Source: Aneurinibacillus uraniidurans (GTDB lineage Bacteria; Bacillota; Bacilli; Aneurinibacillales; Aneurinibacillaceae). Taken from it: a stretch of DNA of 64,000 nucleotides. The DNA lies in contig NZ_CP116902.1 in assembly GCF_028471905.1 (NCBI RefSeq), positions 452,001-516,000 of the forward strand, read 5' to 3'. Position numbers and translations under genes: made by a program. The number at the start of each line of letters is the position of its first letter. Position 1 is the stretch's first letter. Below, piece after piece: positions 1 through 57,979 of this stretch. Below the pieces are notes generated by a model. The model saw only the letters and a program-made list of their open reading frames with translations, did not search any database and was not told the DNA's origin.

Positions 1-390
1 GTATGGCGCAGCTATCAGCAAGCGTTAGAAGTACTGCACCTTAAAAAATGTTTTCCAATGGAACTTGCTGGGGCAGCGGGCTATGGTGAACTGGGAATAT
101 ATCGTTTGCTGCCACAAATAAAACGCTGGAATGAGGAACAGGGCTACCAGAATGATAAATTGGCACGGCTTGTAGCATATGATCAGCATAATCAGAGTAA
201 CTTAGTGGAAACGTTAGATGTATTTTTATGTGCAGCTGGTAAGGTAAATACAGCTGCACAGCAGCTTCATATTCATCCAAATACACTGACTTACCGATTG
301 AGACGTATTTGTGAGGTCGGGGGCATTGACTTGCAAAATGCAAACGACAGGGCGACCTTATTTCTTGATTTGCAAGTTCGGAAGTACTGA
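1..390 (+). CDS. PucR-family transcriptional regulator, C-terminal part (AdeR-like)
   Basis: The reading frame is open from the first base, so the gene starts outside the window. The visible 129 residues contain a PucR-type C-terminal helix-turn-helix: a helix ending in LVETLDVFLCAAGKVNTAA, then LHIHPNTLTYRLRRI, typical of the HTH_30 domain. The gene sits directly upstream of alanine dehydrogenase on the same strand. In Bacillus subtilis the PucR-family activator AdeR lies next to ald and activates it, so an AdeR role is inferred from family plus position. A terminator separates the two genes, so they are probably separate transcripts. Confidence 0.8.
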   Translation, partial: VWRSYQQALEVLHLKKCFPMELAGAAGYGELGIYRLLPQIKRWNEEQGYQNDKLARLVAYDQHNQSNLVETLDVFLCAAGKVNTAAQQLHIHPNTLTYRLRRICEVGGIDLQNANDRATLFLDLQVRKY

Positions 391-49428: not shown

Positions 49429-49457
49429 TTGCTGTACTAAGACAGAGGTGTTATGAT
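49429..49457 (+). promoter_or_regulatory. SigA-type promoter of the 67-residue gene
   Basis: TTGCTG (49429-49434), a 17-base spacer and TATGAT (49452-49457) form a near-consensus promoter 38 bases before the start codon. Confidence 0.65.
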
Positions 49458-49494
49458 ACAGATAACAAGAAAACGGATATGGAGGGATTTTGTT

Positions 49495-49698
49495 ATGATA
49501 CAGAATCATGTAGGTCGCCAATATTGCCTGTCGCGTGAAATGAGATCATTTGTTGTCGAGGAGATGGATCGTCTATTCTTCGCCTGTCGTTATGAAGGTT
49601 CGAATGAAGGCTTTGTGATTGAGAAAGATGCATTCCATCGTCAGGTACAGCGCGGCCGCATTGTAGCAGGTCCAGTTGACACGGCACTCGCTATTTAA
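49495..49698 (+). CDS. small protein of unknown function
   Basis: A 67-residue soluble protein. ATG 49495 follows GGAGGG. The composition is balanced and charged, with one pair of phenylalanines (DRLFFACRYEG) and a basic end (RQVQRGRIVAGPV). No known motif is visible. It has its own promoter, and a second unknown gene follows after 54 bases, so the two may be co-transcribed. Confidence 0.55.
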   Translation: MIQNHVGRQYCLSREMRSFVVEEMDRLFFACRYEGSNEGFVIEKDAFHRQVQRGRIVAGPVDTALAI

Positions 49699-49752
49699 GT
49701 AGGAACCAGGCGTCAGTCCACCGCATAGGATACAGAGAAAAAGGTGATGCGG

Positions 49753-50109
49753 ATGAGACGACGGGCATATAGGAGACAACAGAGCTCCTGTAATGAAGTG
49801 AAACAGGGGCACGTAGCGGTTCCAGAAAACTTTTTGATGATTCAGCAGTTCGTGGATAAAGGGGGAAATCCATGGCGGCTGAATCCGGTTGAGACAGCAG
49901 AACGAGTCGGAATCGCCAATTTAGGCTTTAGTCCGGGGGACAAATTTGTCTTCCGTAGCTACTATGTAGATTACGGTTCCGGTTTAAATCATGCACTGGT
50001 TGATGCGCAGCATGGAATTTGTAAGTTCCTTGTTGAGTTGTATCAACCGGTACGCCAAGGAGGCTCAGGTATCTGGGCCGTACAGAGAGTTACATTATTA
50101 GGTGTATAG
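49753..50109 (+). CDS. protein of unknown function, 118 residues
   Basis: An N-terminal basic stretch (MRRRAYRRQQSS) is followed by a compact globular domain with many aromatic and glycine residues (FSPGDKFVFRSYYVDYGSG). There is no signal peptide, membrane segment or motif I recognise. The ATG at 49753 is favoured by AAAGGTG at 49740-49746; two earlier in-frame starts lie inside that site. It shares a strand with the 67-residue gene and ends in a strong bidirectional terminator. Confidence 0.5.
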   Translation: MRRRAYRRQQSSCNEVKQGHVAVPENFLMIQQFVDKGGNPWRLNPVETAERVGIANLGFSPGDKFVFRSYYVDYGSGLNHALVDAQHGICKFLVELYQPVRQGGSGIWAVQRVTLLGV

Positions 50110-50122
50110 TTGATCGATAGGA

Positions 50123-50158
50123 AAAGAGCAGGCTGCTAACAAGCAGCCTGCTCTTTTT
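50123..50158. terminator. bidirectional terminator between convergent genes
   Basis: AGAGCAGGCTGCT pairs perfectly with AGCAGCCTGCTCT around AACA, with T runs on both strands. It ends the 118-residue gene and the convergent cupredoxin gene. Confidence 0.9.
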
Positions 50159-50534
50159 ATTTTACTTCAAGCGTTCCGCTGAATCCGACTTCAGGATGTC
50201 CGGGTGTATCCGAGATAAATGTGAATATGCCTTTTTTGACTGCCTGGAATTCAATGGTACTCAGCTCATCTTTTTTAAGGTCCCGTGAGAAAATATGATA
50301 ATCAGGGAGTGTGAAATTGTGGACCTGATTATCAGCGTTGCGAATTACGAGCGATACGGTATCCCCCTGCTTGCATATTAGATGTTTGGGAGAGAATCCG
50401 TTTTTTGTGATCATAATCGTTTGGGACACTCGGGTTGTAAGTGTAAAAACACGGCCATGTTGCTGATTCCAGGCAAATACGGCTATATTGATCGCAAGCA
50501 GTAGCAGGACCCATCCAATACGAGTGCGACGCAT
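50157..50534 (-). CDS. membrane-anchored cupredoxin-domain protein lacking the canonical cysteine
   Basis: A 125-residue protein with one N-terminal membrane or signal segment (IGWVLLLLAINIAVFAW) followed by a cupredoxin fold: ITKNGFSPKHLICKQGDTVSLVIRN, then VHNFTL, and the C-terminal FTFISDTPGHPEVGFSGTLEVK. In cupredoxins the copper ligands are His, Cys, His and often Met. Both histidines are present (VHN and GHP), but the Cys position before GHP is Thr or Pro and no Met follows, so a type 1 copper site is doubtful. It is the last gene of a three-gene cluster and overlaps the stop of the gene before (TAATG). Confidence 0.8.
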   Translation of the reverse strand: MRRTRIGWVLLLLAINIAVFAWNQQHGRVFTLTTRVSQTIMITKNGFSPKHLICKQGDTVSLVIRNADNQVHNFTLPDYHIFSRDLKKDELSTIEFQAVKKGIFTFISDTPGHPEVGFSGTLEVK

Positions 50535-51163
50535 TAACGTTGAGGACTTTCGGGGCCGGCACCCGGCTGTGTTTTGCTGCGGAACTGTTCAGCTAGATTA
50601 ACTGTGAACAGATGGTGTGTCGGATAGAAATATACATACGGCTCAATGCGACGGTTTTCTGGTGTGATTTGGAACATCCACATTTCGGGAGTTGTCATTG
50701 TACCTTCGTTCATGCGGACATTGTAATAAACAGTATCCCAGTATCCATTTTTATAAGAGAGTAACGTTAATTGACCGTGCAGACGAGCAAGTGCATCGCT
50801 CGCAAAGCGCGGATCACGAATGACGGGAGCGGGGAAGACAGGTGTAAGTCCATTTTTATCTGTTTTGGTTCGGTATCCGTTCTCAGCTACTACGACTTCT
50901 GCATCTGCGAGCGGTTTCTGAGTAGTCGAATCAATGACTCTGACTTGAAGCGGAGCCCACCTGTCCCATTTGTTTGCACCTGGGATGTCAGGTCCTGGCT
51001 TTATAGGTGGCTGTAAGGTCAGGGGATCGCTGCTTTGACGCTGAACGGTCTTATATTTAAACTCTGGAAGAGGCTTGTGTTCGGGCTGTGGCGCCGCCTT
51101 AGTCTGGAGAGGCAAAGCGCTAAGCAGTGCAGACAGCAGAAGAGGGGGCAACCACTTTTTCAT
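50534..51163 (-). CDS. exported protein of unknown function
   Basis: A 209-residue protein with an N-terminal signal peptide (MKKWLPPLLLSALLSAL, cleavage likely near QTKAA). The mature part begins with a proline-rich linker and then has a beta-rich segment, PLQVRVIDSTTQKPLADAEVVV, resembling a carboxypeptidase-regulatory-like or Ig-type domain. It ends in a part rich in Tyr, Phe and Met. ATG 51163 is chosen because GGAGG lies just before it; the frame extends to 51181. It sits between the SpoIID-like gene and the cupredoxin gene, and the three are very close or overlapping. Confidence 0.65.
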   Translation of the reverse strand: MKKWLPPLLLSALLSALPLQTKAAPQPEHKPLPEFKYKTVQRQSSDPLTLQPPIKPGPDIPGANKWDRWAPLQVRVIDSTTQKPLADAEVVVAENGYRTKTDKNGLTPVFPAPVIRDPRFASDALARLHGQLTLLSYKNGYWDTVYYNVRMNEGTMTTPEMWMFQITPENRRIEPYVYFYPTHHLFTVNLAEQFRSKTQPGAGPESPQR

Positions 51164-51177
51164 ATGTTTTCCTCCAA

Positions 51178-51822
51178 TCATGGGATTTTCACCAGCTTTT
51201 TGCCTTCGTAATAGAATTGCAGGATTTCGAGCATATTTTTGCTTTGTTTGTCTGCTAAGTATTGACTTCCATTTTGAGACATTTTTTGAGCGTTACGGTA
51301 TTGATAGTTCGGGTCATTTGGATAGCCTGCACGATAGTTCAGCTCAAAAATTGTATCATCTTGTTTTACATAAGCAAGGTCCATGACTTCATCGAATGCA
51401 GCATTGGTACGCGGCATGCTAGTACCTTCCCGATACACCTGGAAGTTGGTCGTGTTATCAACCGCGAACTTCTGATTATCAATCGTTACCGTATTGAGCG
51501 CGTGGTACCAGGCGAACATTTTGATGGCCATTGCGCCAGCTTTCAGAGATTCGGGCTCCCAGGTTGGCAGCCATTCGTTCGGCAGTACATTACGGATATA
51601 CGTTTCAAATGGCAGGGACATTACATACAAAATACGGCCGCGTGGATTCGGTTCACCACCTGGCTTACTCTCACGTACGGCCACAAGCAGACTGCCTGGA
51701 ACGGGAGTTTGTCCAATCTTAGCTTCAGTTTGCGCGTTTGCTGCTGGTACGGTTCCAAATAGTTGGATCGCTAGACAAACGAGTAGAACCGCACACAGCG
51801 TGTAAAAAGAATAACGGCGCAT
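51178..51822 (-). CDS. secreted SpoIID/LytB-domain protein
   Basis: A 214-residue protein with a signal peptide (residues 1-29, ending PAANAQ) and a SpoIID/LytB-type domain: MSLPFETYIRNVLPNEWLPTWEPESLKAGAMAIKMFAWYH, then near the C terminus MSQNGSQYLADKQSKNMLEILQFYYEG, the typical ending of SpoIID relatives. SpoIID is a peptidoglycan lytic enzyme of engulfment; the conserved Glu of NEWLP (first catalytic-site glutamate in SpoIID) is kept. AAAGGAGG precedes the start. It is the first gene of a three-gene set with two other exported proteins. Confidence 0.85.
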   Translation of the reverse strand: MRRYSFYTLCAVLLVCLAIQLFGTVPAANAQTEAKIGQTPVPGSLLVAVRESKPGGEPNPRGRILYVMSLPFETYIRNVLPNEWLPTWEPESLKAGAMAIKMFAWYHALNTVTIDNQKFAVDNTTNFQVYREGTSMPRTNAAFDEVMDLAYVKQDDTIFELNYRAGYPNDPNYQYRNAQKMSQNGSQYLADKQSKNMLEILQFYYEGKKLVKIP

Positions 51823-51925
51823 GCATATTCCTCCTTTACTATGTAAGCATCTTTCTTGCTATGACTTAGTATGGGAAGAAACGGTTATTTTGTTCGTTGA
51901 AATAATTGGAAATTAGGATATAGGA

Positions 51926-51978: not shown

Positions 51979-54093
51979 CTATGAGATTTTAAACTGTTTC
52001 ATTAACTGCTCAAGATTTTCAGCTGTTTTGAACAAGGAAGAAGCCGATTCTTGAATGTTATTCATAATAGCCAATTGATCTTCAGCGGATTCTACAATTT
52101 GATTTGTATTATCAGCAGATTGTTTCGCTACATGGTTCATAGATTCTACAGAAGCAGTGACCTCTTCTGTGCTTGCAGACATTTGTTCCGACACAGCAGA
52201 CATTTCCTGAATTTGATCGGAAGCATTTTCGACAACATGCATAATTGTGCTAAACATTTCATTTACCTGGTGAATGACAGAAATACCGGATTGTACATTT
52301 TGTTTGTTTTCATCCATGGATTGAACAGCTTGGTCGGTATTGATTTGAACCTTCGTAATCAATTTACTAATTTTATCTGCGGATGCTCCGGTTTGGTCAG
52401 CCAGCTTCCGAATTTCATCGGCGACAACAGCAAACCCTTTGCCAGCTTCGCCAGCTCGCGCGGCTTCGATAGCGGCATTTAATGCAAGTAAGTTGGTTTG
52501 TGCTGCTACTTCAGTAATCAGTTGAAGGATTTGTCCAATTTCTTTTGAGTCATCGTTAAGTGTTTGCACAATAGATGCTGTCTTTTGTGTGGCATCTTGT
52601 ATTGATTTCATTTGTTGAATCGATTGTTGAATCGATGAGTTCCCTTGATGGACTTGATTTATGATTTCGGTAGAGCCTTCTGCGATAGTAGAAGCTGTTT
52701 CGGCTACACGTTGAATACCGATGGCCATTTCTTCGATTGCTTGTACACTTTCTTCCGCACTTTTTTCTTGTATGATTGCTCCATTTGCCACTTTCTGAAC
52801 GGAAACGGTTAGTTCATTAGCTGAGTGCGTTCCTTGATCGGTATTCGTTTTTAATTGAGAAGCGGAAAGAGCGACATTGTCTGTAGTTTCTTGTATATTT
52901 TCAAGCATGTTCTTGATGTTCGTTTTAATCTCAATGAGAGCAATCGCTAGATCTTTAATCTCGTCTTTCCGGCGTAATGATCGCTCAGAAACTTCAAAAG
53001 AAAAATCTCCATTCGCCATTTTCTTACAGTGTTCAATTGTTCGTCTGATTGGTTGTACGATATTTCTTGTGATAAATACGAGTATCACCGCTAGGATAAT
53101 AACTCCCACAATGGCCATGATCGCATTTGTTGTCATAATTTTATTGGAATCAGCCATGACCTCATTCATAGGTGCAGCTACAACGTACGCCCAAGGAGTA
53201 GTCGTATTTCCAATTGGAATCGGTTGTGTAACTTTATATAAATTTGTTTTAGCAGTTGGAGAATAGTCCGTAATCGTATAGCCTGTTCCGGTTGTTAGAG
53301 CGTGTTTAAGCTGTTCTTTGTTCTGTAATCCTTTCATATCGTCTATTGTTTTACCGATATTATCCTTGTTTGGATGAGCGACAAATGTACCATTGCTCGA
53401 TAAAAGTACACCAAATCCAGAATCATAAACTTTGAGTTTGCTGTTCAATTCATTCAAATGGTCAAGAGAAACGTCAATTCCCACAACACCGATGAATTGG
53501 TCATGTACAAACATGGGAACAATTAACGAGGTAATCAGTACTTTTTTTCCATGTATTTCGTAAAAGTATGGATTCATGATGGTTTCTTTTCCGGATTTCT
53601 TAGGAAGGAAATAGTAATCAAAGTCACTCGTTTCTTTCATAGACTCCGTTCCTTCGATACGTGAAGTAGTGATACCGTTGTCTCCACGCGCCCAGAATAA
53701 GCTGAAGCGTCCAGCTTGGTCATAATCACTTGCATAGCGGGTCTGGATGGCTTTATCTCCTAAGGCATTTGGTTCAGAAACACTCCATACACCGAGAAAA
53801 TCTTTGTTTTTTTCTAACGTGCTTTTTAACATATTTTTATATGTGTCCGGTGATATGTTATTTGATTCTTTCATTGATTCGATTGTGTACGCGAGTGTAC
53901 GGGCTGAATCAAGAGGGGATTGGAGCTGCAAAGAAATACGATTTGCTTGTTCAGTTGCCAATGATTTTGCTAGTTTTTCGGCTTCTTTTTCTGTCATATT
54001 TTTGGATAAAACCGATGTTGTGCCGAATATTGCAGAAAATATTAAGAGAACAGCACCGAGAATAATGAGAAGACTTCGTGTTTGTAGGTTCAT
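51979..54093 (-). CDS. methyl-accepting chemotaxis protein
   Basis: A 704-residue transmembrane chemoreceptor. An N-terminal membrane segment (residues 7-29) is followed by an extracellular double Cache (dCache) sensor domain of about 280 residues, a second membrane segment near 325-345, a HAMP domain ([23 protein letters not shown]) and a long cytoplasmic signalling domain with the conserved hairpin [20 protein letters not shown]. The ligand is unknown. GTAAGAGGTA precedes the start. It is monocistronic on the minus strand. Confidence 0.95.
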
Positions 54094-54239
54094 TACCTCT
54101 TACTCCTTTGGGTATTAAAATTCAGGTCCATTGTACTAATGATACGTCACTTTCATATAAATGGTAAATAAAATATTTGTACAATTTCGTACATTATTTG
54201 CGTACAGATGCAAGCCTAAGGAAAGTACCTGCGTAAGAA

Positions 54240-54281
54240 AAAACCGCAATCCCTATTTCCAATAGGAGTTGCGGCTAAAAA
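54240..54281 (-). terminator. terminator after the dehydrogenase gene
   Basis: CCGCAA (54244-54249) pairs with TTGCGG (54269-54274), with an inner CCTATT/AATAGG stem. Read on the minus strand it is followed by TTTTTT and lies just after the stop of the dehydrogenase gene. Its two-stem plan recalls the neighbouring related terminators. Confidence 0.75.
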
Positions 54282-54316
54282 TATATGGGGGGTTCTGTGG
54301 GAATTTGGTGTTCCAT

Positions 54317-55348
54317 TTACTTATTCACATAGAAGTGTAATGGGTAAGTTCGGTATTGAGCAGGCGGTAGTTTTTCTGTCGTATAAAATCCTGCCGGAGC
54401 TTGTAATAGCTGCGGAATACGGTTTACAATTGTGGCACATGTCAGTTCAACCGTCGCCGGACAGGAAATTTTCACTTCTGTATTGGGCTCGCCTTTAATC
54501 ACCCAATCATTACGATCAACTTCATTTTCTGCATATACTTTTCCGATGCACTCCGTCACGATTACAGGTCCCTGATGTGTTACAGTTGTTACGACCGCAG
54601 ACATGCCTGTAGCATCTCCTGCTGGAATGGTTTTATCTAATGTTTGTGAATACAAGTCTTGTTTACATGTAGTTGGCACAAGTTCTTGATTCATTGATTT
54701 TATGGTCCAGCCGAACTGTGAGCATAACCATTCGTTCGCATTCCACATGAAGGACGGCAATTCATTATTGCATGCAATTTTCTCTTCGAACTCTTGCAAC
54801 GTTAGTCCAGCGCCATGAACGTTAGCAAGTGCAATCCCATATTCTTCAACGTTATAACTGGACTGGCCTTCGATACGGATAATTTGATGTGTGGCACCTG
54901 CTAATGTTGTAATCAGATTTCCCCAGAATACATCTTGGTAGCCGGAGCCGGTTAATGTGCAGTTGTTTTCTTTTGCCAGACGATCCAGGCGGTTCGTTAG
55001 TGCTGGTGCTGTTGTCCATGGGTAGAATGCTTCTTCGCATGTGCTAATGGCATTTACACCATGTTTTGCTGCTAATTCAAACGCTGCATATGTATCAGAT
55101 AGCAGACTTGTAGTTGAAATGATACAAACATGAGCGTCACACTCTTTGAACACTTGCTCTGCATCAGAGCGAACAGGAATATTGAGTTGAACGCCTAACT
55201 CTGCTACCTCTCCGATATCTTTACCAACACGACTTGGATTACGATCAATTGCTCCAACGATTTCTGCTCCTTTTTCATAAAGGTATCGAAGAAAGTACTT
55301 TCCCATTTTTCCACAGCCATATTGGATTACTCTTATTTTTTCTCTCAT
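54317..55348 (-). CDS. 2,4-diaminopentanoate dehydrogenase-like oxidoreductase
   Basis: A 343-residue NAD(P)-dependent enzyme with the dihydrodipicolinate-reductase-type N-terminal Rossmann fold: IRVIQYGCGKMGKYFLRYL (residues 5-23), then AIDRNPSRVGKDIGE, and the catalytic region STTSLLSDTYAAFELAAKHG. It most resembles 2,4-diaminopentanoate dehydrogenase (Ord) of clostridial ornithine fermentation. None of the other genes of that pathway is in the window, so the natural substrate may differ. It stands alone, with two divergent starts and a promoter region on the plus side. Confidence 0.72.
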   Translation of the reverse strand: MREKIRVIQYGCGKMGKYFLRYLYEKGAEIVGAIDRNPSRVGKDIGEVAELGVQLNIPVRSDAEQVFKECDAHVCIISTTSLLSDTYAAFELAAKHGVNAISTCEEAFYPWTTAPALTNRLDRLAKENNCTLTGSGYQDVFWGNLITTLAGATHQIIRIEGQSSYNVEEYGIALANVHGAGLTLQEFEEKIACNNELPSFMWNANEWLCSQFGWTIKSMNQELVPTTCKQDLYSQTLDKTIPAGDATGMSAVVTTVTHQGPVIVTECIGKVYAENEVDRNDWVIKGEPNTEVKISCPATVELTCATIVNRIPQLLQAPAGFYTTEKLPPAQYRTYPLHFYVNK

Positions 55349-55497
55349 CTTTTCTCTCCCATTTCTATTTTTTCATAGCATCGATTCTATAGTAACGATT
55401 AATTTACTTTTTTTCAATAAATGTGTTATTTTTATATTTTTATCCAAAAATGATGTCGTAAGAAATGTGCAGGTGGAATTAAAAGAATACTTGCAAC

Positions 55498-55526
55498 TTG
55501 TCAACTGAATCTTTTAATAGTATATT
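55498..55526 (+). promoter_or_regulatory. SigA-type promoter of the nitroreductase gene
   Basis: TTGTCA (55498-55503), a 17-base spacer and TATATT (55521-55526), 36 bases upstream of the start codon. Confidence 0.6.
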
Positions 55527-55561
55527 TACTATAAAAAGATAATTAAGGGGAGGATATTTTT

Positions 55562-56188
55562 ATGAATGACTTTGTATCTCTAGTAAAAGAAAGACGTTCG
55601 GCTAATAAGTTTATTCAGGGAGTGACAATTCCCCAAGAAGAGTTAGACGAGATGTTTTCTCTTGCCAAATTTGCTCCTTCAGCATTTAACCTACAGCATG
55701 CACATTATGTAGTTGTTACGGATCCTGATATAAAGGAAAAGGTATACGAGGCTGCATACAAACAATATAAAGTTCATACAGCTTCAGCAGCTATTCTAGT
55801 ACTCGGAGATACACAAGCATATCAAGAAGTAGAGAAGATTTATGAGGGAATGCTTCATTTAGGTGTGTTAAATAAGCAAGAGTATGATATGACTGTAGAA
55901 AGCATAATTCAGATGTATGAGAATGGTGGAGATATGTTCAAGCGGGATGAAGCCATTCGAAACGCTAGCTTATCCGCTATGCAGTTTATGTTAATCGCAA
56001 AATCGAGAGGCTGGGATACTTGCCCTATGATCGGTTTTGATCCTGAAGTTATGCGGAAAACGTTACATATCCCAGATAGGTATATTCCGGCTCTACTAAT
56101 TACAATCGGGAAAGAGGATACCTCCAGCCAGAGACCACGTGGATATCGTAAGCCAGTGAGGGAATTTGTTACATATCAATCGTTTTGA
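55562..56188 (+). CDS. nitroreductase-family protein
   Basis: A 208-residue FMN-binding protein of the nitroreductase fold: RRSANKFIQGVTIPQEELDEM, then LAKFAPSAFNLQHAHYVVV and IAKSRGWDTCPMIGFDPEVM. It is similar to oxygen-insensitive NAD(P)H nitroreductases and YodC/YfkO-like enzymes of bacilli; the natural electron acceptor is unknown. It keeps the FMN-binding arginine motif at the N terminus. A GGGGAGG site precedes the ATG. It is monocistronic, between its own promoter and a terminator of the local related set. Confidence 0.85.
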   Translation: MNDFVSLVKERRSANKFIQGVTIPQEELDEMFSLAKFAPSAFNLQHAHYVVVTDPDIKEKVYEAAYKQYKVHTASAAILVLGDTQAYQEVEKIYEGMLHLGVLNKQEYDMTVESIIQMYENGGDMFKRDEAIRNASLSAMQFMLIAKSRGWDTCPMIGFDPEVMRKTLHIPDRYIPALLITIGKEDTSSQRPRGYRKPVREFVTYQSF

Positions 56189-56192
56189 CTAT

Positions 56193-56237
56193 AAAAAACC
56201 TGACATTCTACTCCTATACGGAAGATGTCAGGTTTTT
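56193..56237 (+). terminator. terminator after the nitroreductase gene (related set)
   Basis: AAAAACCTGACAT pairs with ATGTCAGGTTTTT, enclosing CTCCTATACGGA. It has the same CCTGACAT/ATGTCAGG core as the terminators at 51926 and 58003. Confidence 0.85.
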
Positions 56238-56386
56238 ATTTATGATCTTTATAGTTGTTCGAATTGTGGTGATAAAGTTCTAGGTATAAAGTATCCAATC
56301 GTATGAGATTTATGTTAAAATCAGTGAATAATATGAGGTTATATAGTTTGGTATGCTAGATAAGGTGGAGAGAGGGCGAAATAGAA

Positions 56387-57979
56387 ATGAAAAAAATGAA
56401 ATTTTCTTTGCAACATTTAATTGTATTTGTCGCTCTTTTAACATTTATTTTTACTCTCGGCAGCAGTTTATGGAGTGGTTATAGTACTGATAAACAAGCG
56501 CTTATTACAAATACCTTAGAAACCAATCGTGTATATGCTCAAAAACTCGCAAAAACAACAAATATTTTTTTGAAATCGACGATGCAAACTTTACAATACA
56601 GTTCCAAGGATATTGCTCCTTTTATGAATAAGGATGAGGGAAAACTTCTTCATGAGGCGAATCGTTTAAAAATACAGACAAATATTTTTAACTCTGTGAT
56701 CATCGCGAATGCTGAAGGTAGAATTTTAGCTACATCACCCCAGTCTCTGCATATAAAAAACAAAATGCTCACATCGCCTGGCGGTCAGCAAGCTTTAAAA
56801 GAAAGAAAGCCGCTTATCTCAAAACCATATACTGCCATAATAGGAAAACTTGTTATCTTTATTTCATATCCCATTACCGATGAAAAGGGAAACTATCTTG
56901 GGCTAGTGGGGGGGACGCTTTATTTGAAGGAAACGAATGCATTGAATGAACTGCTAGGACAGCATTTTTATAAAGATGGTTCCTATGTTTATGTAGTAGA
57001 TGGGGATGGCCGCATTATTTATCATCAGGATCCTACCCGAGTCAACGATCTTGTAGCAGAAAATCATGTCGTTCAAAAGCTTATAAAAGGAAAGAGTGGA
57101 GCTGAACGAGTGATAAATACGAAAAGCAAAGACATGCTTGCTGGGTATGCATATGTTCCAATTGCGGATTGGGGAATCGTTTCACAGCGTCCAATAGAGA
57201 TGGCATTAGCACCTGCTACGAATATGATTAATGAAATGATAAAAAAATCACTTCCTTTCTTACTCGTATCGCTACTAGTTATTTGGTGGATTTCTAAGAA
57301 GATTGCTCAACCTTTGCATCAATTGGCGCATTATACTGAGAACAGCACAGAATTTAATCAAGAAAAAAGCATAGAGAATGTATCTGCCTGGTACTATGAA
57401 GCGATTCAATTGAAGAAATCCCTTCTGCACAGCTTAGCTTTCTTGCATGATAGAATTAATGATTTTATGTATCAGTCTACAACTGATCCATTAACAAATC
57501 TCACAAATCGCCGAACAATGGATGAAAGAATGAAGAAATGGACAGAAAGCAGCACGCCTTTTTCATTAATCTTATTGGATATCGATCACTTCAAGAGTAT
57601 TAATGATACGTATGGACATTCTGCAGGGGATGAAGTTTTGATATTGTTAGCGAAAAACATGAGAGAAGTTACGCGGGAGCAGGATGTATGCTGTCGTTTC
57701 GGAGGAGAGGAGTTTCTGATCCTTCTTCCTTATACGGGGAAAAATGAAGCCTCTAAGGTAGCGGAACGATTACGAAGGAGTATGGAAACAAGCACAAGTT
57801 CATTTGGCGAGGTTGTAACCATTTCAGCGGGGATTTCTTCTTATCCTGATTGTACAGCTGAAATAACAAAACTAATCGAGTTAGCAGATGAATGTTTGTA
57901 TAAAGCTAAAAAAAGCGGAAGGAATCGTACGATTGTATTTGAGAATTCTACTAGCACGCAGAACAGTGCCCCCTATTAG
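56387..57979 (+). CDS. diguanylate cyclase with extracellular dCache sensor
   Basis: A 530-residue membrane-bound c-di-GMP synthase. One N-terminal membrane segment (residues 10-32), an extracellular double Cache sensor of about 240 residues, a second membrane segment near 288-305 and a cytoplasmic GGDEF domain. The active-site motif is GGEEF at residues 439-443. An inhibitory-site RxxD (REQD, 430-433) stands five residues before it, so product feedback is likely. DIDHFKSINDTYGHSAGDEVL is the nucleotide-binding segment. The signal sensed is unknown. It pairs functionally, not genetically, with the HD-GYP gene near 4 kb. Confidence 0.95.
   Translation: MKKMKFSLQHLIVFVALLTFIFTLGSSLWSGYSTDKQALITNTLETNRVYAQKLAKTTNIFLKSTMQTLQYSSKDIAPFMNKDEGKLLHEANRLKIQTNIFNSVIIANAEGRILATSPQSLHIKNKMLTSPGGQQALKERKPLISKPYTAIIGKLVIFISYPITDEKGNYLGLVGGTLYLKETNALNELLGQHFYKDGSYVYVVDGDGRIIYHQDPTRVNDLVAENHVVQKLIKGKSGAERVINTKSKDMLAGYAYVPIADWGIVSQRPIEMALAPATNMINEMIKKSLPFLLVSLLVIWWISKKIAQPLHQLAHYTENSTEFNQEKSIENVSAWYYEAIQLKKSLLHSLAFLHDRINDFMYQSTTDPLTNLTNRRTMDERMKKWTESSTPFSLILLDIDHFKSINDTYGHSAGDEVLILLAKNMREVTREQDVCCRFGGEEFLILLPYTGKNEASKVAERLRRSMETSTSSFGEVVTISAGISSYPDCTAEITKLIELADECLYKAKKSGRNRTIVFENSTSTQNSAPY

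Follow-up and report, generated by a model that had tools for sequence, protein, structure and literature searches.

An exported SpoIID-type enzyme and its partner in Aneurinibacillus and the Alicyclobacillus group: a possible split counterpart of SleC

What is the role of a tight cluster of three genes for exported proteins in Aneurinibacillus uraniidurans, and does such a cluster have a precedent? The genes lie in a window of 64,000 nucleotides, by which we mean the whole stretch of DNA that was analysed. A first-pass annotation of this sequence had described them as encoding a SpoIID/LytB-like protein, a beta-rich protein that could not be named and a cupredoxin-like protein, and had viewed the set as an unfamiliar module that might work at the cell wall or in spore formation. 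A literature search of partial coverage found no paper on this module. We favour, with somewhat better than even confidence, an explanation in which the first two genes, A and B, encode a SleC-like spore peptidoglycan enzyme split into domains on separate genes, with forespore expression and a partner that acts in trans.

Gene calls and surroundings

The three minus-strand open reading frames were confirmed in a row where they had been placed, with 14 bases between A and B and a TAATG overlap in which the start of C sits inside the stop of B. The features of the locus are as follows.

51178 to 51822, minus strand: gene A, 214 aa, predicted exported compact SpoIID-type lytic transglycosylase with a SleC-like catalytic domain (from PF08486, the structural model and its 9h68 match)
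50534 to 51163, minus strand: gene B, 209 aa, predicted exported protein of transthyretin/CarboxypepD_reg fold, like the SleC N-terminal region (from the model, its 9h68 match and the linkage to A)
50157 to 50534, minus strand: gene C, 125 aa, probably membrane-anchored cupredoxin-fold protein without type-1 copper ligands (from PF13473 and the ligand positions)
51891 to 51896, minus strand: candidate -35 element CGAACA, weak and sigma-G-like, 17 nt upstream of CATACTA
51867 to 51873, minus strand: candidate -10 element CATACTA, found 42-51 nt before A in 9/9 family upstreams
50119 to 50156, no strand assigned: GC-rich stem-loop and T-run, probable terminator behind C, read by eye from the sequence

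The 14-base gap takes the start of B as the ATG at 51163, which has GGAGG in front of it; an alternative in-frame ATG at 51181 would overlap the stop of A. As the first reading had it, each protein begins with a signal or membrane segment: judged by eye, the N-termini of A and B are signal-peptide-like and that of C resembles a membrane anchor.

Two short plus-strand ORFs adjoin the operon. Relatives of the one at window positions 49744-50109, for which Pfam returned nothing, lie beside the operon in seven other genomes of the Aneurinibacillus family, and relatives of the other, at 49453-49698, do so in five. On the far side (51979-57979), genes for an MCP, a diaminopentanoate-dehydrogenase-like protein, a nitroreductase-like protein and a GGDEF protein, the last two named by eye, separate the operon from a YfhH/CotF-like block. 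The same block, again named by eye, stands beside the operon in six relatives; five of these six also have a GNAT-like gene (name by eye), which is missing in the window.

Predicted folds of A and B

Pfam bears out the SpoIID/LytB domain that had been read in the first gene. A matches SpoIID (PF08486) above the gathering score, at 2.2e-10 and 41.5 bits with a cut-off of 23, and this is its sole Pfam match up to E 1; within that limit neither the SleB/CwlJ family (PF07486, Hydrolase_2) nor a C-terminal peptidoglycan-binding part was found in its 214 aa. The catalytic-Glu region and the C-terminal MSQ-G motif of SpoIID/LytB proteins align with A, but A is without the middle insert of SpoIID and falls below the cut-offs of both NCBIfam models, TIGR02669 and the SpoIID equivalog TIGR02870 (35.9 bits of 234.75). 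In a Foldseek search with the AlphaFold2 model of A (pLDDT 95.5), the top four rows were the four chains of SleC 9h68, the zymogen of Clostridioides difficile (E 1.4e-8), followed by SpoIID. VIA-align matched the model to SleC residues 147..326 (Z 18.1, 166 residues, 2.9 A), which is a tie with SpoIID 5i1t at Z 17.2. By sequence the A profile matched SpoIID 4rwr best (1.8e-13) and SleC second (1.9e-10), running along SleC in a single collinear stretch and along the SpoIID entries in two pieces. In the printed alignments the Glu of the VLPNEW motif of A is aligned to a Glu in both SpoIID and SleC, a position which we take to be that of the SpoIID catalytic Glu. Taken as a model-based prediction, the SpoIID-type fold of A is well supported. 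The genome has three SleB/CwlJ-family matches, so A is not its sole candidate cortex enzyme.

Long-form relatives of A were also encountered, their domains being read by eye. Those of a Thermoactinomycetaceae MAG, a Kurthia MAG and an Anaerolineae MAG carry an extra N-terminal domain, two actinobacteria have a crystallin-like domain at the N-terminus, and a Patescibacteria MAG has YRFWS repeats behind the enzyme.

What kind of protein is B? The earlier description of it as beta-rich and unnameable stands in so far as the model is a beta-sandwich and no Pfam family reaches its cut-off, the best sub-threshold match being CarboxypepD_reg at 0.0045; NCBIfam gave no match for the window protein. 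It needs amending in that the model resembles the N-terminal region of SleC. The B model has a pLDDT of 81; confidence is mostly high between about residues 51 and 170, apart from a dip at 121-130, and low at the N-terminus. Foldseek placed 9h68 first and the transthyretin-like domain of carboxypeptidase D next; VIA-align matched B to SleC residues -2..128 (Z 12.4, 99 residues, 2.6 A), with the carboxypeptidase D domain as runner-up at Z 10.8. The fold is widespread, reaching Z 5 or more in 483/999 aligned chains, and a profile search found no sequence link of B to SleC, its best PDB match having an E of 0.72. On the Alicyclobacillus side a long Pro/Ala-rich stretch often precedes the B domain. 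Judged by the model, B resembles a counterpart of the SleC N-terminal region.

Both in Foldseek and in VIA-align, the A and B models occupy consecutive, non-overlapping ranges of SleC 9h68, of which the residues up to about 128 are presumably the part removed on activation. Since 9h68 ranks first in the PDB for both models, the pair looks like SleC cut into an enzyme and a pro-region-like partner. The idea that the module is without known precedent is not supported, because A and B match two domains of the clostridial protein.

Linkage of the genes and the place of C

The suggestion to search relatives for the same gene order was rewarded within one family. Among 61 genomes searched, 8 of the 11 that belong to the Aneurinibacillus family preserve the order A-B-C, and they represent four genera (g1-g4). 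All three genes are missing from G004 and G006, and G001 has lost most of A and the whole of B, retaining the promoter element CATACTAT; these three genomes indicate that the module is dispensable. The G001 remnant is a 152-aa ORF (L074:5830-6288) in which part of the first 69 residues of A is in frame with the cupredoxin part of C.

Beyond the family too, A and B stand together at the ortholog loci that we collected. A contig scan that used the A alignment and two peptide patterns only, and of which the best 80 of 86 loci were kept, yielded 51 A orthologs from Aneurinibacillus, Alicyclobacillus, Tumebacillus, Ferroacidibacillus, Sulfoacidibacillus and MAGs. At all 51 loci among these best 80 of 86, B directly follows A on the same strand, while C lies within the fetched flanks at five, every one Aneurinibacillus-side. 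Viewed from the partner, B occurs in 49 of 398 Bacilli genomes, 48 with a strong match and one (G312, excluded from the strong set) with a weak match at 2.6e-9; in each of the 48 strong-B genomes A is the gene immediately upstream, and it lies on the same strand. A-type matches without B exist, for instance two in G288. The linkage of A and B is well supported.

Of the 48 strong-B genomes, 47 have A and B as separate open frames. The sole fusion, in G002 (L067:6001-7206), is a natural in-frame joining of the two into one 401-aa ORF, enzyme first, with the signal peptide of B lost at the joint; the size of this loss is not that of a point sequencing error.

Additionally, among the best 80 of 86 loci the Alicyclobacillus group has a second, more distant copy of the enzyme, A', 35-48% identical to A. 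It forms a paralogous pair with B', an exported protein whose domain is carboxypeptidase-regulatory-like and whose gene precedes that of A' at 17 of the 21 loci examined of 23 (L131-L134 and L136-L154, with L148 and L149 left out). The B'-A' gene order, partner first, is the domain order of SleC. Members of the B' set (A6), which omits the truncated B' of L152, give weak Pfam matches to CarboxypepD_reg and bMG3, and the profiles of B and B' align in hhalign with an E of 4.9e-6 and a probability of 86%. B' has no significant sequence match to SleC, the best, at 0.034, being to another protein.

The third protein had been thought cupredoxin-like, and it is one: C exceeds the gathering score of Cupredoxin_1 (PF13473; 2.7e-11, 43.9 bits, cut-off 27) and its profile matches are cupredoxins, with the N-terminal cupredoxin of nitrite reductase 2dv6 at 5.6e-13 and nitrosocyanin at 1.8e-7. 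The fold being a true cupredoxin fold by sequence, the alternative of another structural family, raised beforehand as a way in which the annotation might fail, is set aside. The type-1 site of these relatives is not shared by C. In 14 aligned sequences the Cys is absent throughout, with Ser in its place in 14/14, and both the second His and the Met are present in 3 and missing in 11, which counts against the type-1 copper binding that could have been envisaged. The absence of Cys and Met from the window protein was correctly noted at the outset; of the two histidines regarded as kept, the His of HN is found in 14/14 and the His of GHP, in 3/14, is no family feature.

Might C hold a metal in some other way and supply or sense it for A and B? 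Such a non-type-1 site, predicted at His72 with Asp109/Glu115, seems to us improbable. It would fit the invariant columns of the 14 sequences, which include H72, S108, D109, P114, E115 and G120, and the occurrence of C in 47 of the 48 strong-B genomes (hand count); set against it are the missing type-1 site, the Asn that replaces Asp109 in the fused copy of G001, which lies outside the 14-sequence alignment, and a further 29 genomes, 27 of them of family f23, in which C is found (E up to 1e-20) although strong B is lacking (hand count). Outside the Aneurinibacillus family A and B adjoin while C lies elsewhere, so a fixed trio that includes C is not supported.

As to the surroundings of C, on the Alicyclobacillus side it lies about 20-50 kb from A-B on the same contig in six genomes. 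In family f23 C is found without A-B and adjoins IspH-like and MFS-like genes (L079:2838-5372, in G035), and genes of these two kinds, named by eye in both cases, also neighbour the triad in the Aneurinibacillus family.

Promoter motifs and competing explanations

A sporulation-sigma promoter had been proposed as something to look for upstream of 51822, and a sporulation-type element, CATACTA, is present there. It precedes A in 9/9 upstreams of the Aneurinibacillus family, namely those of the eight operons and of the remnant in G001 (shuffle mean 0.125, maximum 2), and by eye a -35-like NGA[AT]CA at a spacing of 17-18 nt accompanies it in 5/9. On the Alicyclobacillaceae side a different motif, GYATR-N13-16-GGGNA, precedes A in 40/46 upstreams (shuffle mean 0.21, maximum 2), in upstream segments cut off where the profile match begins, a point which may differ from the true start codon. 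Half of these upstreams (23 of 46) had been inspected before this SigF-type pattern was drawn up; it matches 21/23 of the viewed and 19/23 of the unviewed; a stricter ten-base form matches 31/46 (shuffle mean 0.11). The sigma-G and sigma-F consensus promoters resemble the CATACTA and GYATR-N13-16-GGGNA motifs, respectively. A sigma-F spacing of 15 nt is given as usual, with 14 nt at sigG, in PMC5942855, and PMC7438776 describes how recognition by SigF and by SigG overlaps in C. difficile.

The controls are mixed. In the same genomes spoIIR, which we take to be a forespore gene, is preceded by GTTTAN-N17-CAYACTG in 9/10. For gpr, a looser SigF-type pattern (of the GYATA-N15/16-GGnnA type) was found in 4/7 members of the Aneurinibacillus family, and in Alicyclobacillus the looser GGnnA pattern occurs in 2/3, about 120 nt ahead of where the gene presumably starts, a distance that makes gpr an unconvincing yardstick; for spoIIR in Alicyclobacillus it occurs in 0/3. 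Before B', at 12 of the 17 starts, the SigF-type pattern was seen in 0/12 and a loose CATA-type -10 pattern in 1/12. Judged from these motifs, with controls that point both ways, the promoters before A are probably of forespore type, and for the Aneurinibacillus family a SigE reading may also apply. Before spoIIR the looser pattern matched in G000 and G005 only, about 245 nt ahead of the domain, and these matches were taken as chance; the SASP genes of the window's own genome proved too varied to decide as a yardstick for SigG promoters. The SigK consensus includes a final TA that is missing from CATACTAAG/CATACTATC, and for this reason the Aneurinibacillus motif was not read as a mother-cell SigK promoter.

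What would such a pair do? According to our preferred explanation of a split SleC-like enzyme, A would be a lytic transglycosylase of compact SpoIID type, its VLPNEW Glu standing at the catalytic-Glu position of SpoIID, and B a free version of the SleC N-terminal region, where the pre-pro sequence lies. Both would be made in the forespore from the forespore-type promoter and exported to the space between the two spore membranes, the site of the cortex and the germ-cell wall. There B may act in trans as a binding partner of A that assists its folding, keeps it inactive or positions it, a task attributed in SleC to the pro-region acting in cis; A may subsequently cleave spore peptidoglycan, either while the cortex matures or when the spore germinates. 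C would be an accessory exported protein of cupredoxin fold and, in the Aneurinibacillus family, part of the operon. The complex, the trans inhibition, the cortex substrate, the timing, the role in germination and any role of C are parts of this scheme that we infer.

A and B probably work like SleC, and yet they are not classed as SleC, since they lack its one-chain architecture and its C-terminal part. The substrate of SleC, the clostridial spore cortex-lytic enzyme, is cortex that contains muramic lactam. SleC carries a C-terminal peptidoglycan-binding part, which A lacks, and is a single chain with its pro-region first, whereas A and B are two exported proteins whose gene order, like the G002 fusion, is the opposite. 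Clostridial pro-SleC is described as a zymogen processed by CspB (PMC3567191, PMC4619724); a 2012 survey lists SleC as absent in bacilli and present in some clostridia (PMC3533761), and A-B in contrast is found in Bacilli. The C. difficile gene is reported under sigma-K (PMC3789822), unlike the forespore-type motif before A. That motif also departs from the mother-cell promoter of SpoIID, which is under sigma-E control. In Bacillus, SleB-YpeB is a forespore-made exported cortex enzyme encoded beside an exported partner, an arrangement that A-B shares, but the domains are unrelated. YpeB may keep SleB inactive (PMC13393411).

The same fold evidence could serve a construction rather than a germination enzyme. 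A and B might be a forespore-side wall remodeller and its helper in engulfment or in germ-cell-wall/cortex synthesis, a counterpart of SpoIID, and we rate this as unlikely, though worth weighing: the fold of A ties SleC with SpoIID, its best sequence match is SpoIID 4rwr, SigF-like motifs would mean early forespore expression, and surveys list SpoIIP, SpoIIB and GerM as undetected in Alicyclobacillus acidocaldarius (PMC3533761, PMC7924749). The missing SpoIID insert and the low TIGR02870 score of A speak against it, as do the match of the B model to the SleC N-terminal region and the lack of the module in two genomes of the Aneurinibacillus family. Further removed, and in our judgement rather improbable, is a general autolysin-type pair of the vegetative wall, a SpoIID/LytB-like enzyme with a generic Ig-like adaptor, in which the likeness of B to SleC would reflect a common beta-sandwich. 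The wide spread of the B fold agrees with this, as do the long-form A relatives in Actinomadura, Patescibacteria and Anaerolineae, which are not known to form endospores; but the same solved protein is the best structural match of both A and B, and forespore-type motifs precede A in two groups. The initial view of a module of exported proteins with a possible wall or spore role has gained ground: given the conserved order and the sporulation-type promoter element, the module is real and most likely spore-related.

We further propose, as a tentative extension of the split SleC-like enzyme, that Bacilli have a two-component SleC zymogen in which a separate pro-region chaperones or inhibits a cortex-cutting transglycosylase in trans. 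Spore activation would then proceed by dissociation or removal of the partner and not by cleavage of a propeptide, and the same domain pair would be seen in four arrangements: enzyme-partner genes, partner-enzyme genes, a natural fusion and the clostridial single pro-enzyme. If the split enzyme is real, A and B give, as separate proteins, the parts needed to test the role of the SleC pro-region, a question left open in PMC4619724. A split, forespore-made SleC counterpart in Aneurinibacillus and the Alicyclobacillus group would, if true, connect cortex breakdown in clostridia with that in Bacillus. The Alicyclobacillus group are spoilage spore formers.
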